IMG/VR virus record: IMGVR_UViG_3300013104_000055
Location: 1 to 34,135 of that record
DNA: 34,135 nt
Source of the DNA: a virus
Reading direction: 5' to 3' (one strand)
Part shown: positions 18,589 to 27,818 of the stretch, in pieces
Layout: each line of letters starts with the position of its first letter
How positions within the stretch are numbered: the stretch's first letter is position 1
Notes under the pieces: model-generated
Seen by the model: only the letters and a program-made list of their open reading frames with translations
Databases searched by the model: none
Told to the model about the DNA's origin: nothing
Translations under genes and position numbers: made by a program

Positions 18589-19107
18589 TTAGGCGAACGC
18601 TTCGATCCACTCGAGGTCGAGGGAGGTCTTGCCTTCGAACGCCTGCCTGAATGCTTCAGCCAGGTCCAAGCCATCTGCCGATCCCGCAAGCTCGGCGTAC
18701 CGGCCTTGATGAACATGGGTTTCGAGTAGGCATTGCTGCTGTTGGATGTCAGCGATGTGTTCCGCGAGCTCGTGATCTAGAAGGAACCACTCGCCTTGGT
18801 CCCGCTTACTGGCGAACGTCCGGTGGAGTTCGCGTTCCTTCGCCACGTTCCCGGGGACGTAAGTGATGAGCATGGGGCTGCCAACCCAAATGGATGGGCG
18901 GATTGCCTTGCCCCCGCGTTGCAGCTGGCCGCAGCGGCTCTCCGGGTTGATGCTCGTGCCGATCTTCACGAAGGACCCGCATTGGATGTAGTAGATGAAC
19001 GGGCCAAGCTCCGGAAATACCGAAAGTGGAGCGGGGCCATTGATCCGCATACTTGCTGCGGCTACTTCGAGGGCGTCTTGCGTCGGTGCTTGCAGTGTTT
19101 CGGGCAT
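18589..19107 (-). CDS. GIY-YIG-type nuclease (T5orf172/MUG113-like)
   Basis: A 172-residue protein whose middle part shows the T5orf172 pattern: FIYYIQCGSFVKIGTSINPE (38-57), SRCGQLQ, a later conserved strand LITYVPGNVAKERELHRTFA, and GEWFLLDHELAEHI. This is a GIY-YIG superfamily domain with Tyr, Lys-Ile-Gly-Thr and Glu in the expected order. It would cleave DNA or act in binding only. As one of the first early genes, it may target host DNA or aid takeover. ATG start with AAAGGG 10 bases upstream. The C-terminus is a helical tail. Confidence 0.85.
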   Translation of the reverse strand: MPETLQAPTQDALEVAAASMRINGPAPLSVFPELGPFIYYIQCGSFVKIGTSINPESRCGQLQRGGKAIRPSIWVGSPMLITYVPGNVAKERELHRTFASKRDQGEWFLLDHELAEHIADIQQQQCLLETHVHQGRYAELAGSADGLDLAEAFRQAFEGKTSLDLEWIEAFA

Positions 19108-19225: not shown

Positions 19226-19414
19226 CTAGCGGGAGGGTGATTCGGCTGGAAGTGAGTCCAGCCACTCGGCGAGATCATCGTGTCTGATGACGCCTTTGGA
19301 GTTCGCGTATCGGGCGGCCAGGTTGCCGTCCGCTACTTGCTGCTTGAGGGTTCGTACGCTGTAGCCACTTTGCTCAGCTGCCTCTTCGAATGTGTAGGCG
19401 AGTTTCTGGCTCAT
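19226..19414 (-). CDS. excisionase-like / MerR-type HTH protein (62 aa)
   Basis: Sequence KLAYTFEEAAEQSGYSVRTL, then KQQVADGNLAARYANSKGVIR and HDDLAEWLDSLPAE, is the standard winged-HTH 'excisionase family' domain. It is the second gene in the lytic direction after the Cro-like gene, overlapping it as ATGA. It could be the directionality factor (Xis) helping prophage excision or an early transcription regulator. Its distance from the integrase means either role is possible. Confidence 0.8.
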   Translation of the reverse strand: MSQKLAYTFEEAAEQSGYSVRTLKQQVADGNLAARYANSKGVIRHDDLAEWLDSLPAESPSR

Positions 19415-19686
19415 TCTGCGTCATCCTCTTCGATGAGTGCTGAGGGCCGGACTTGGAGGGCGGTGGCGATGGCTCCGAGTTCGCAGACTGTGAGGCTGCG
19501 GTGTCCTTTGATGCCGCCTTCGATGCTGCGGCGGAGTGTTGGGTATGCGATGCCGGTTGTGTCGGCGAGGGCCAGGAGGCTGGAGGGCTGCTGGCGCTTG
19601 GATCGGTTGTCTTCGATGGCGATCTTGATGCGGTCTGCAATTTGGGGGTCTTTGGCGACTGCTGCGCCGTCTTGGGGGTTAGTCAT
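19411..19686 (-). CDS. Cro-like HTH regulator (first lytic gene)
   Basis: A 91-residue protein with HTH region LLALADTTGIAYPTLRRSIE (about 36-55) and CELGAIATALQVRPSALIEE at the end, typical of Cro/C1-type repressors. It is the first minus-strand gene from the divergent promoter region and therefore in the Cro position. The ATG lies 6 bases after a -10-like TAGGTT (minus strand), so the mRNA is probably leaderless. It likely turns down the opposing repressor gene. Confidence 0.82.
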   Translation of the reverse strand: MTNPQDGAAVAKDPQIADRIKIAIEDNRSKRQQPSSLLALADTTGIAYPTLRRSIEGGIKGHRSLTVCELGAIATALQVRPSALIEEDDAE

Positions 19687-19692
19687 GAGACA

Positions 19693-19721
19693 AACCTAGT
19701 ATGCCATTTGGCTAATCGCAA
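19693..19721 (-). promoter_or_regulatory. predicted leftward early promoter (leaderless)
   Basis: On the minus strand TTGCGA (19721-19716) and TAGGTT (19698-19693) are separated by 17 bases, and the ATG begins 6 bases later at 19686. Transcription would start at or next to the start codon. The -35 overlaps the operator-like sequence GCTAATCGC (19711-19719). Confidence 0.55.
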
Positions 19722-19799
19722 GTACCGGCGTGTCGAAACAAGTAGTGCAGGTCACAAAAAATGAGTACAGCGAATGACATACGCGATTAGTCATTCGGT
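19711..19799. promoter_or_regulatory. operator region between repressor and Cro
   Basis: GCTAATCGC (19711-19719) recurs inverted as GCGATTAGT (19783-19791). The second copy lies inside a further inverted repeat, CGAATGAC (19771-19778) and GTCATTCG (19790-19797). The sites touch the -35 of the leftward promoter and lie just upstream of the -35 of the rightward one, the expected layout for competitive repressor/Cro binding. Confidence 0.6.
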
Positions 19800-19828
19800 T
19801 GCAAGAGTTGAGGGCATGCGTTTAAGAT
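19799..19828 (+). promoter_or_regulatory. predicted repressor promoter (leaderless)
   Basis: TTGCAA (19799-19804) and TAAGAT (19823-19828) with an 18-base spacer. The ATG of the repressor starts 7 bases after the -10, so the first transcribed base is close to the A of ATG and no ribosome-binding site exists. Leaderless repressor mRNAs are well known, for example lambda cI from PRM. Confidence 0.6.
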
Positions 19829-19835
19829 TGACCAC

Positions 19836-20093
19836 ATGACAACTTACGGTGAGCGCTTGGAAGCAGCGCTGGTAACTCAGATCAAGGTCGAGCTCGTTGA
19901 GCGGAACATGGATCAGAAGGACCTTGCGGACAAGGTCGGCATCAACGCTGTCACCATGAGCAAGTACATGACCAACAAGCGCAGCGTCCCGATGCCTACG
20001 TTCTTCAAGGTTGCAGAAGCCTTGAGCGTCAGCCCTATGGTACTGATGCAGCGCGCCGAAGCTCGCGTTCAGCCAGAATCTCAGACGGCCTAA
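19836..20093 (+). CDS. immunity repressor (HTH, C1-type, 85 aa)
   Basis: HTH_3-type domain: LVERNMDQKDLADKVGINAV, then TMSKYMTNKRSVPMPTFFKV and AEALSVSPMVLMQRAEA. It is the plus-strand partner in the divergent switch and so the likely lysogeny repressor. It is only a DNA-binding domain with a short tail; no LexA/S24-type self-cleavage domain is present, so RecA-driven cleavage cannot inactivate it. A strong terminator follows at 20154-20199. The last 59 bases are overlapped antisense by the gene at 20035-20265. Confidence 0.8.
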   Translation: MTTYGERLEAALVTQIKVELVERNMDQKDLADKVGINAVTMSKYMTNKRSVPMPTFFKVAEALSVSPMVLMQRAEARVQPESQTA

Positions 20094-20265
20094 TACCTCG
20101 CGATAGCGACAGGTTCCCGAACTCCTGAACCGTCATCCGCTGCACTGCACAGCAGAGCGTCCCCGTCCCACTTTGGGATAAGGGGCGCTCTTCTCTTTTA
20201 AGCGCCACGACGACGCCACCCTTGGCAGTAGTGGCGGCCGGTGCGGTCAGAGACTTAGAGTGCAT
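20035..20265 (-). CDS. possible SOS-controlled small protein, antisense to repressor 3' end
   Basis: A 76-residue frame starting MHSKSLTAPAATTAKGGVVV with GGGGAGAAC directly before ATG. The end, MTVQEFGNLSLSRGIRPSEI and onward, looks like an amphipathic helix. An SOS-box-like palindrome lies 13 bases upstream (20279-20294). It overlaps the last 59 bases of the repressor gene on the opposite strand and its coding sequence includes the repressor terminator hairpin. It could encode an antirepressor, or simply be transcribed as antisense RNA. No family recognised; coding status is uncertain. Confidence 0.4.
   Translation of the reverse strand: MHSKSLTAPAATTAKGGVVVALKREERPLSQSGTGTLCCAVQRMTVQEFGNLSLSRGIRPSEILAERELRRAASVP
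20154..20199 (+). terminator. terminator after repressor gene
   Basis: AGAGCG-T-CCCC (20154-20164) pairs with GGGG-CGCTCT (20182-20191) with one bulged T, capped by a GTCCCA/TGGGAT inner stem, and is followed by TTCTCTTTT. It should end the leaderless repressor transcript about 60 bases after its stop codon. Confidence 0.8.
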
Positions 20266-20278
20266 GTTCTCCCCAGAT

Positions 20279-20327
20279 TCGAATATGTGTTCGAGTGAAT
20301 TCAAAGCTTACGATGCTGGACCGACAA
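20279..20327 (-). promoter_or_regulatory. candidate LexA (SOS) box with overlapping promoter
   Basis: TCGAATATGTGTTCGA (20279-20294) differs by one base from the actinobacterial SOS-box consensus TCGAAC-N4-GTTCGA. On the minus strand a possible -35 TTGTCG (20327-20322) and -10 TTGAAT (20304-20299) with a 17-base spacer place transcription start near 20292, inside the box. LexA would then block this promoter until DNA damage. Confidence 0.5.
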
Positions 20328-20397
20328 CAAAGCAATCTCGCCTCTGCTTGACGGGATTGGGTCCAGATGGGTTAAAGAGTAGCCGCTGATGAGTCTG

Positions 20398-20537: not shown

Positions 20538-20816
20538 ATGGTCATGCCTGCCGTAAAGCAACCAGAATCAGGACCACTCGCGAAGGCTTTCGCCGGGGAG
20601 GTCCGCGCCGCCCTTGCGCGTCGTCGGATCACCGCTAAGCAGCTGGCAATCTCTACGGGGCTCTCCCCCACTTACGTAAACAAGCGGCTCCGCGACGAAG
20701 CCCCATTTACGCTCAATGACGTCGAGGTGATCTGCGAGAAGCTTGACGCCGACTCGGATGGGTTCCGAGCAGCTGCAGCCAAAGCGCTCCGTGAGGCCGG
20801 CGCCGACGAAGAGTAA
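20538..20816 (+). CDS. second C1/Cro-type HTH regulator (92 aa)
   Basis: HTH core ALARRRITAKQLAISTGLSP, TYVNKRLRDEAPFTLNDVEV, then ICEKLDADSDGFRAAA, with an acidic C-terminus (DEE). Two ATGs (20538 and 20544) are possible; the first is directly preceded by a -10-like TAGATT, so a leaderless start at 20544 is also plausible. It converges on the integrase gene and shares a terminator with it. It may control integrase or maintain lysogeny together with the small repressor. Confidence 0.78.
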   Translation: MVMPAVKQPESGPLAKAFAGEVRAALARRRITAKQLAISTGLSPTYVNKRLRDEAPFTLNDVEVICEKLDADSDGFRAAAAKALREAGADEE

Positions 20817-20830
20817 CCACAGACAAACAA

Positions 20831-20862
20831 AGAGCCCCCACCAGGTTGGTGGGGGCTCTTCT
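20831..20862. terminator. bidirectional terminator between HTH gene and integrase
   Basis: A perfect 12-bp stem AGAGCCCCCACC/GGTGGGGGCTCT with a 5-base loop. On the minus strand it is followed by TTTGTTTG (ends integrase mRNA); on the plus strand by TTCTGCT (weaker). It separates two converging genes. Confidence 0.85.
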
Positions 20863-20867
20863 GCTGT

Positions 20868-22058
20868 CTAGGCTTCGATCATCTTGGACATCTTCTCTAG
20901 CGCTGTGGTGAGTCGCTTGATGTCTACCTTGGTTCGGTATGCCTGGGACATTTGCCGGGTGCTGTGTCCGACGATGTCCTTGATGGTGTCCCAGTCCACT
21001 CCGGCGGCGTCTAGGAGGTCTACGGCGGTGTGGCGGGCCCCGTGGAGGACGACGTTGGTTGGTAGGCCAGCTTCGGCTAGGAGTTTGGCCCATGCCTCCG
21101 TGGCGCTGTCTGGATCCCATGGGCGGCTGTCGTTGAGGAACAGCAATCCCTCACCGCTGTGGGTCTGCATGTGGAGCTGCAGAATGGACTTGAGTGGTTC
21201 CACGAGCGGGAGGATGCGCCAGCCGCTACTGGACTTGGGGCGGGTCAGGTACATGGTGCCTTGAAGGTGTCGCCACTCGTAGTCGGCTGGCACTTTGGTA
21301 ATGTCGCTGATTCGGATGAGCTGCCACGAGAGGTCGAGCGTGTCTGTGATGCGGTCAGCTTCGAGTCCCAGGATCTCGCCACGCCTCGCGCCAGTGAGTA
21401 GGTAGGTTGCCCAGAGTGCGCGGTCGTCACGGGTTGCGAGGTGCGCCAGGAGTTGAATGGCTTCCTCGGCGCTGAGTGCGTGCTGCTGCGGTTTGGCTTT
21501 CTTGGGCGGGTCCACCATCTCACACACGTTCCGGGTCGCTTTCCCTTCACGCATGGCTGTCTTCAGCGCCGTCGAGAGTACGGCATGCGCTTTGATGGCC
21601 GTGTCAGGCCCAACCATCTTGACGTCTTCCGGCCATTCGCTGGGATCCTTCTCACGCATCTTCAAGGACTTGGGCGTACTCATGATGACCTTGAACATTT
21701 GCCGGACGTGATCAGCGGTAAGCTCATCAATCTTCTTCTTGCCAAGCACGGGGATGAGCCAGCCGTCAGTGGTGGACTTGTAAGAGGCGTAGGAGTTCGG
21801 CCGGACCTCGTTGGGCGCGATGTCCTCTATCCACCGACGCAGCCAGGTCTCCAACTTGAGTCCCGACGTCGGCAGGTCGCCAAGCTGGTTGAGCTCCTTC
21901 TTGACCTCAGCCAGCTTCTTCATGGCCACCTTCTTGTCTTTGCTGCGGATCACCTTCCGCCGGCGCTTGCCGTCCGGCCCCATAGGCAACTCGATAGCCA
22001 CCGTCCATAGCCCGCGGGCGTCCTTGAACAGCGCGCCCTCCCCCTTGCCCCTAGCCAC
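20868..22058 (-). CDS. int: tyrosine integrase
   Basis: A 396-residue phage tyrosine recombinase that inserts and excises the genome at attP/attB. N-terminal arm-binding domain with RGKGEGALFKDARGLWTVAI (3-22), SAM-like core-binding domain (about 65-170) and catalytic domain with TGARRGE (Arg225), RPKSSSG (Lys275), HGARH (His339, Arg342), GHS (His365) and nucleophile Tyr374 in QAYRT. All catalytic residues are present. The start is GTG (22058), overlapping a 43-codon gene. It ends close to a strong terminator. Confidence 0.95.
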   Translation of the reverse strand: MARGKGEGALFKDARGLWTVAIELPMGPDGKRRRKVIRSKDKKVAMKKLAEVKKELNQLGDLPTSGLKLETWLRRWIEDIAPNEVRPNSYASYKSTTDGWLIPVLGKKKIDELTADHVRQMFKVIMSTPKSLKMREKDPSEWPEDVKMVGPDTAIKAHAVLSTALKTAMREGKATRNVCEMVDPPKKAKPQQHALSAEEAIQLLAHLATRDDRALWATYLLTGARRGEILGLEADRITDTLDLSWQLIRISDITKVPADYEWRHLQGTMYLTRPKSSSGWRILPLVEPLKSILQLHMQTHSGEGLLFLNDSRPWDPDSATEAWAKLLAEAGLPTNVVLHGARHTAVDLLDAAGVDWDTIKDIVGHSTRQMSQAYRTKVDIKRLTTALEKMSKMIEA

Positions 22059-27436: not shown

Positions 27437-27818
27437 TGGGCTCAGCCTCCTTCGTCACGGGGACGATTTCGAAGGTGGGCATGTTGTCCGCGATGGCCTT
27501 CTCGATCCGGTCATAATCGATGACCACAGAGGCGCCGGACGCAGTAGCAGCAAGGATCTGCTGCAGGATGGCGCGGTCGGCCCGCTGGTTCGCCTCGATC
27601 CGCGCAAGAGCTTGGGCGTTGAAAGCGAGCTGCCCGTACGCGCTGGTCTTGTACTTGCCCCAGTCAATCTGTGGGTTCCAAAGGGCATCGACTGGCATCT
27701 TCTCGATCTGCTGTTCGATGGACAGCCCGCCCTTCATCTGCGGGCCGCCCTCCACCAGCGCTTCCGGGGTGAACCGCAAGTAGCGTTCGTTGTTCATACC
27801 TTCAGGGAGTTTGCTCAT
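27429..27818 (-). CDS. lysis-region hypothetical protein (129 aa)
   Basis: Starts MSKLPEGMNNERYLRFTPEA. The middle (QIDWGKYKTSAYGQLAFNAQ, ALARIEANQRADRAILQQIL) is helical and recalls coiled-coil regions of actinophage lysis-module proteins that follow the endolysin. C-terminal strands (DYDRIEKAIADNMPTFEIV). No transmembrane helix. Function unknown; its place between endolysin and holin suggests a structural or regulatory role. Confidence 0.65.
   Translation of the reverse strand: MSKLPEGMNNERYLRFTPEALVEGGPQMKGGLSIEQQIEKMPVDALWNPQIDWGKYKTSAYGQLAFNAQALARIEANQRADRAILQQILAATASGASVVIDYDRIEKAIADNMPTFEIVPVTKEAEPNG

Follow-up and report, generated by a model that had tools for sequence, protein, structure and literature searches.

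In this study, we analyzed IMG/VR virus record IMGVR_UViG_3300013104_000055 over its full length of 34,135 bases (the window, a virus record without host contigs), with a focus on a small gene located next to the immunity repressor gene. The lysogeny module of the window consists, from left to right, of genes for an excisionase (Xis), a Cro-like helix-turn-helix (HTH) protein and the immunity repressor, followed by a 444-bp gap, a second HTH gene and a tyrosine integrase. At the repressor end of this gap lie a predicted LexA operator (SOS box) and, behind it on the minus strand, a gene for a protein of 76 amino acids (positions 20035-20265), which is proposed here to be a damage-controlled antirepressor. 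Judging from the relatives described below, the phage should be a temperate one with an Arthrobacter-type host, and it is reasonably likely that this segment serves it as a module for induction by DNA damage.

The repressor gene (19836-20093, plus strand) encodes 85 amino acids that match HTH_3 and HTH_26, and its homologues are annotated as immunity repressors. Only HTH families, and no peptidase domain, were found among its family matches, so the first-pass annotation appears to have been right in regarding it as a bare DNA-binding domain unable to cleave itself. Such absence of a self-cleavage domain from the cognate repressor is a trait expected with LexA-controlled antirepressors. The structural model of the protein is a confident five-helix HTH domain (predicted local distance difference test, pLDDT, 92), which is similar to C.BclI, ClgR, SinR and P22 c2 in structure comparison. 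A predicted intrinsic terminator of the repressor gene (20151-20199, plus strand), composed of a hairpin (-27.6 kcal/mol, z -5.1) and a following U-rich tract, falls within the span of the small gene, which is on the opposite strand.

The small gene itself begins with an ATG at 20265, 3 nucleotides (nt) after the ribosome-binding site GGGGAG (20269-20274, minus strand), and runs into the 3' end of the repressor gene with a convergent overlap of 59 nt (20035-20093), as had been noticed from the window alone. Both the start codon and a G-rich ribosome-binding site before it are conserved in relatives. Conservation of the frame had been set beforehand as one of the points on which the proposal could fail. 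The frame proved to be shared by more than 20 distinct phages and to bear the marks of codon-level selection; in almost all of them, it follows a LexA-like box and converges on, and extends into, the 3' end of a repressor gene that encodes a DNA-binding domain only. Selection outside the overlap was purifying: the mean entropy of codon positions 1, 2 and 3 was 0.90, 0.66 and 1.65, respectively (22 sequences), and the ratio of nonsynonymous to synonymous substitution rates (dN/dS) was 0.22-0.51 for the codons before the overlap in five long-form relatives. From these codon statistics it is almost certain that the frame encodes a functional protein. Two products had been suggested originally, an antirepressor or an antisense RNA; the codon-level selection indicates a protein-coding gene and not merely an antisense RNA.

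The predicted LexA operator, TCGAATATGTGTTCGA (20279-20294), differs at one base from the consensus TCGAACNNNNGTTCGA, in agreement with the earlier description of this site as one base off the actinobacterial LexA consensus. A box as good as this one was obtained in 6 of 3000 first-order Markov simulations of the 444-bp gap. The identical 16-mer is present upstream of lexA in both Arthrobacter sp. ok362 and Pseudarthrobacter sp. PS3-L1, each of which carries a related prophage, and TCGAATATATGTTCGA precedes a umuD-like gene in one of these two host-type genomes as well as other genes. At the sequence level, therefore, the SOS box at this promoter matches the box of the host regulon. As the box is also kept at its position in most relatives, control of the small-gene promoter by LexA, which had been postulated from the window alone, is very probable. 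Over the whole window, two sites with at most one mismatch were seen, against 0.1 expected; the second of them, TCGATCTGCTGTTCGA (27703-27718), is located amid genes and is probably a chance match.

To what extent this arrangement recurs can be seen from related phages. In seven phages of Arthrobacter, namely Kumotta, BrayBeast, Eileen, Bridgette, Peas, RootBeer and Constance, the genes flanking the repressor are arranged as in the window, and the corresponding gap of each contains a LexA-like box. With the repressor alignment as query, 22 loci were recovered from IMG/VR, nearly all of which had a box with at most 3 mismatches and then a minus-strand frame of 38-89 amino acids; the frame was also present in members without a good box. 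In the main family, that is, the clade of the window, every member overlaps the repressor 3' end, by 35-107 nt. When 395 Micrococcaceae-family genomes were searched with the repressor profile alone, matches were found in 27, and most of the stronger loci showed the same layout. After clustering of the repressors at 70% identity, a box with at most 2 mismatches was located 40-230 nt beyond the repressor stop in 14 of the 27 clusters vs 5% of random windows (p about 6e-12). While a single window is suggestive, this comparison across phages settles, as far as sequences can, that the box occurs beside the repressor beyond chance.

A more distant clade, whose repressors are 38-47% identical to that of the window, also has an annotated gene at the equivalent place, with the same core motif, a LexA-like box and an overlap of 24 nt with the repressor gene (annotated coordinates). 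It is described as a hypothetical protein in Sarge (gp31), ArV2 (gp33) and Bauer (gp42) and as an HTH protein in Shoya (gp38), Maja (gp31) and Zucker (gp41), which are among the annotated members of the family (L058-L063 and L065); in Kumotta, BrayBeast, Hestia and the Bridgette group, the member is unannotated. Beyond these phages, an order-wide search revealed a clear box together with a similar frame in only one of the additional relatives (L220). A similar short frame is present in the Propionibacterium phages Anatole, E1 and E6, and a box was seen in Anatole (positions 1811-1826 of locus L064), although the evidence from these three is weak because they represent one distinct sequence. 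In both Anatole and L220, the short frame is convergent and its core is similar, which hints at a wider spread of the module.

An alignment of the regions preceding the boxes revealed a second conserved element, which in the window reads TTGTCGG-N10-TAAGCT (20327-20305, minus strand) and lies upstream of the box. TTGTCGG (20321-20327) is a PafBC-type -26 motif corresponding to the upstream half of RecA-NDp, and TAAGCT (20305-20310) fits a -10 element (TANNNT) at a fixed spacing from TGTC, usually 7-10 nt from the LexA box. The RecA-NDp motif belongs to the PafBC pathway, through which actinobacteria respond to DNA damage independently of LexA, and the exact letters of its consensus reportedly go back to Gamulin in 2004. 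The window contains a single match to TTGTCRG-N10-TANNNT, an exact one, even if one mismatch is permitted; since about 1.8 one-mismatch matches would be expected by chance, the claim leans on position and conservation. Among 49 unique related promoters, TGTC-N12-TANNNT was present in 39 (0.26% of random windows) and the strict form TGTC[AG]G-N10-TANNNT in 26 (0.13% of random windows). The first-pass annotation had placed a promoter over the box. A promoter is indeed supported by the sequence, but it is of the PafBC type: no ordinary sigma-70 promoter with -35 and -10 elements was found, and the conserved TGTC-N12-TANNNT spacing accounts for it instead.

Similar promoters are found in host-type bacteria. 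A PafBC-type motif precedes recA in Arthrobacter ok362, and the umuD-like gene of this organism is preceded by motif and LexA box combined in the same way, the box lying 7 nt past the -10 element. PafBC reads the -26 motif via sigma adaptation and is activated by single-stranded DNA (PMC11804915); genes with RecA-NDp plus an SOS box exist, and the motif reaches beyond mycobacteria (PMC8223512). PafBC has also been crystallized from another actinobacterium, labelled Aau (PMC6789036). Each of the two host-type genomes contains one open reading frame with two WYL domains, which is fitting for a fused PafBC. We take the label Aau to stand for Arthrobacter aurescens. Considering the promoters of recA and the umuD-like gene and the two-WYL frames in the host-type genomes, the phage seems to use a host-type, doubly damage-controlled promoter; there is a good probability that the small gene is under PafBC control, and both DNA-damage pathways of actinobacteria seem to converge on its promoter. 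As a separate observation made by eye, a PafBC-type motif lies directly upstream of an ImmA/IrrE-like metallopeptidase gene in the Pseudarthrobacter PS3-L1 genome (L233, G002:C11:12101), possibly another mobile element tied to this pathway.

The small protein has a conserved core, TVQEFGNLSLSRGIRPSEIL (20074-20133, minus strand), predicted to form two helices resembling helices 4-5 of the HTH fold; the pattern of this core in the family is TVxEFGxxAxxxGVxPSxLL. In the AlphaFold model, helices are located at residues 46-56 and 60-65, and the remainder is unstructured and of low confidence. When compared by hhalign, the core scored 37.5 against helices 4-5 of the phages' Cro-like proteins (maximum of 200 column shuffles, 17.3) and 28.5 against the same place of the fold in the repressors (maximum of 150 shuffles, 17.2). 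The longer relatives align over helices 2-5, with scores of 47.1 for Cro and 33.1 for the repressor, and three such long forms have been labelled HTH proteins by annotators. Kinship of the short forms to the excisionase (16.5) or to the second HTH protein (14.0) was considered and rejected, the scores being at shuffle level.

The HTH relation is visible by profile-profile comparison only. At the Pfam gathering cut-off of HTH_3, the window protein gave no match, and the long relatives gave weak ones below the cut-off (E 0.007-0.15). Pfam and PHROGs scans of 20 members revealed nothing meaningful and no match to a described antirepressor family, and a search against the sequences of solved structures returned designed toroids and noise only. 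On the basis of the profile comparisons, the small protein looks like a Cro/CI-type protein trimmed to helices 4-5. In known structures, helices 4-5 of the HTH_3 fold usually take part in dimerization.

From the box, the promoter motif, the conservation of the gene, the missing cleavage domain and the helix similarity, all seen at the level of sequence, we infer binding by LexA and PafBC, antirepressor activity and heterodimerization, which would act together as follows. In the lysogen, the small gene would be silent: LexA would cover the operator, which starts immediately past the -10 element, and PafBC should be needed because the promoter has a PafBC-type -26 motif in place of a normal -35 element. 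Upon damage, single-stranded DNA would render PafBC active while LexA is removed via RecA, and the small gene would be transcribed. Its product would then pair with the 85-amino-acid repressor through the two-helix core, giving an inactive complex that stays off the operators at about 19700-19835. A likely operator region with the inverted repeat TGGCTAATCGC/GCGATTAGTCA is located between the repressor and Cro-like genes (19709-19793). The leftward operon for the Cro-like protein and excisionase would thereby be freed, and antisense transcription may add to the effect.

The confidence that we attach to each step is our own judgement. That the small protein acts against the repressor is likely, and that it does so by heterodimerization via helices 4-5 is a tentative suggestion with somewhat less than an even chance. 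Taken as a whole, a damage-gated small antirepressor working by helix mimicry or heterodimerization is the best reading of the locus and has a fair probability of being correct. A broader and still more tentative version would be an AND-gated switch, general in Micrococcaceae temperate phages, in which PafBC activation and LexA removal together release a stripped Cro/CI-type protein that poisons a non-cleavable repressor; it would derive from whole-HTH ancestors, forms that are still seen among the relatives of the small protein.

Several observations weigh against this interpretation. AlphaFold models the small protein with modest confidence (mean 63, with block means of 81-89 in the core), and a Foldseek search with this model gave no significant match, the top rows including HTH_3 proteins with E > 4. 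Profile similarity over 20-42 residues could also reflect convergence of a helix-turn-helix-like pair. The box is missing in five relatives of the repressor (L190, L191, L193, L194 and L204) and in several order-level relatives, and a pattern scan of viral contigs with a strong SOS box showed no further members among the matches listed; for these two reasons, the module, as judged from sequences, is common in this phage group but not universal. Finally, contact with the repressor is deduced indirectly, and the target could be Cro, to which the profile match is stronger, or something else.

The last point leads to an alternative in which the small protein is not an antirepressor but is directed at the Cro-like protein, at integration or excision, or at DNA itself as a regulator. 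Besides the match to the Cro-like protein exceeding that to the repressor, the resemblance of long relatives to whole HTH domains speaks for it; however, Cro should be absent from the lysogen at the time of damage, the short forms lack a recognition helix and the similarity to Xis is at shuffle level, and we regard this alternative as unlikely. Rather unlikely, too, is that the transcript matters instead of the protein. In that case, repressor synthesis would be cut and the lytic genes started either by an antisense RNA against the repressor mRNA, made upon damage, or by transcription that collides with that of the repressor gene and perhaps reads into the Cro-like/Xis operon. Such a process would suit the way in which the two genes converge and overlap throughout the main family, the location of the Cro-like and Xis genes downstream on the same strand and the finding that no minus-strand terminator was predicted between 20304 and 19686. 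Purifying selection on codons with variation at the wobble position outside the overlap, together with the conserved start codon and G-rich ribosome-binding site, nevertheless argues that the protein matters, and an RNA may supplement its effect but not replace it.

It is quite improbable that the small gene is an SOS gene of benefit to the host (in repair, mutagenesis or cell cycle) that merely adjoins the repressor: damage-controlled cargo genes do exist in prophages and the small gene has no functional annotation, yet it keeps its place across the 3' end of the repressor gene even in diverged phages, and its similarity to the phages' own regulators also speaks against this reading. A chance box with a spurious frame, conceivable from this one window (24 matches at 3 mismatches vs about 15 expected), is refuted by the conservation, the codon statistics and the enrichment of box and motif across relatives, and hardly deserves further consideration.

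With regard to the other genes of the module, the excisionase (19226-19414, minus strand; HTH_17) was assigned from family matches, and the Cro-like HTH gene (19411-19686, minus strand), which is conserved and heads the leftward operon, matches PHROG 4583 (transcriptional repressor). Beyond the excisionase on the same strand is a gene of the T5orf172/MUG113 type (GIY-YIG-like; 18589-19107). The second HTH gene of the immunity module (20538-20816, plus strand), known from family matches, is a conserved neighbor that shows 46-61% identity to the window in aligned relatives and is annotated only as HTH; a 19-bp direct repeat occurs in its promoter region at 20395 and 20436. Between this gene and the tyrosine integrase (20868-22058, minus strand; family matches), a strong terminator with a 31-bp near-self-complementary stretch (20829-20861) could serve both strands.

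In many actinophages, the immunity repressor consists of a DNA-binding domain only, and the literature searched offers no description of how such prophages would react to DNA damage. That literature, which included few subscription papers, described neither a LexA-controlled antirepressor of an actinophage nor PafBC control of prophage induction, consistent with the initial impression that no actinophage system of this layout had been described. For Arthrobacter phages of a large group, with Kumotta, Bridgette, Shoya, Maja, Sarge and Bauer as cultured examples, the module provides a concrete answer that can be put to the test, and it flags an unannotated gene in many deposited genomes. It also suggests that prophages can read the LexA-independent PafBC damage pathway as well, and it offers a simple origin for an antirepressor, namely a Cro-like gene trimmed down to two helices.

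Among known systems, the Gifsy prophages have uncleaved repressors that are inactivated by small LexA-controlled antirepressors (GftA, GfoA and GfhA; Lemire 2011, PMC3121763). A small protein, direct LexA control (predicted here) and a repressor that is not cleaved on induction (here one without a cleavage domain) are shared features, whereas in the present case the gene and the repressor gene converge and overlap, the promoter is of the PafBC type and the product resembles the HTH domain of the phage; no sequence relation to the Gifsy antirepressors was found with family libraries. The SOS-controlled antirepressor logic of Tum of coliphage 186 is also alike, although Tum is a different protein with a different gene position and host group. 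SinI of Bacillus subtilis is a small protein related to the dimerization region of a regulator, SinR, which it inactivates in a heterodimer; the present protein would work in a comparable way if helices 4-5 form the dimer interface as in known HTH_3 structures. SinI mimics the C-terminal helices of SinR, whereas the phage protein would imitate helices 4-5 within the HTH domain. The PafBC/RecA-NDp promoters have the same tTGTCRG-N10-TANNNT motif, and some host genes have RecA-NDp together with an SOS box (PMC6789036, PMC11804915 and PMC8223512), but in the present case the motif is found on a phage regulatory gene. Phage induction is similarly tied to host LexA in GIL01, where, in contrast, gp7 modulates LexA itself and LexA represses the phage promoter directly (PMC4551915). 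Most likely, the small gene represents a fresh variation on the LexA-controlled antirepressor logic of 186 Tum and the Gifsy prophages.
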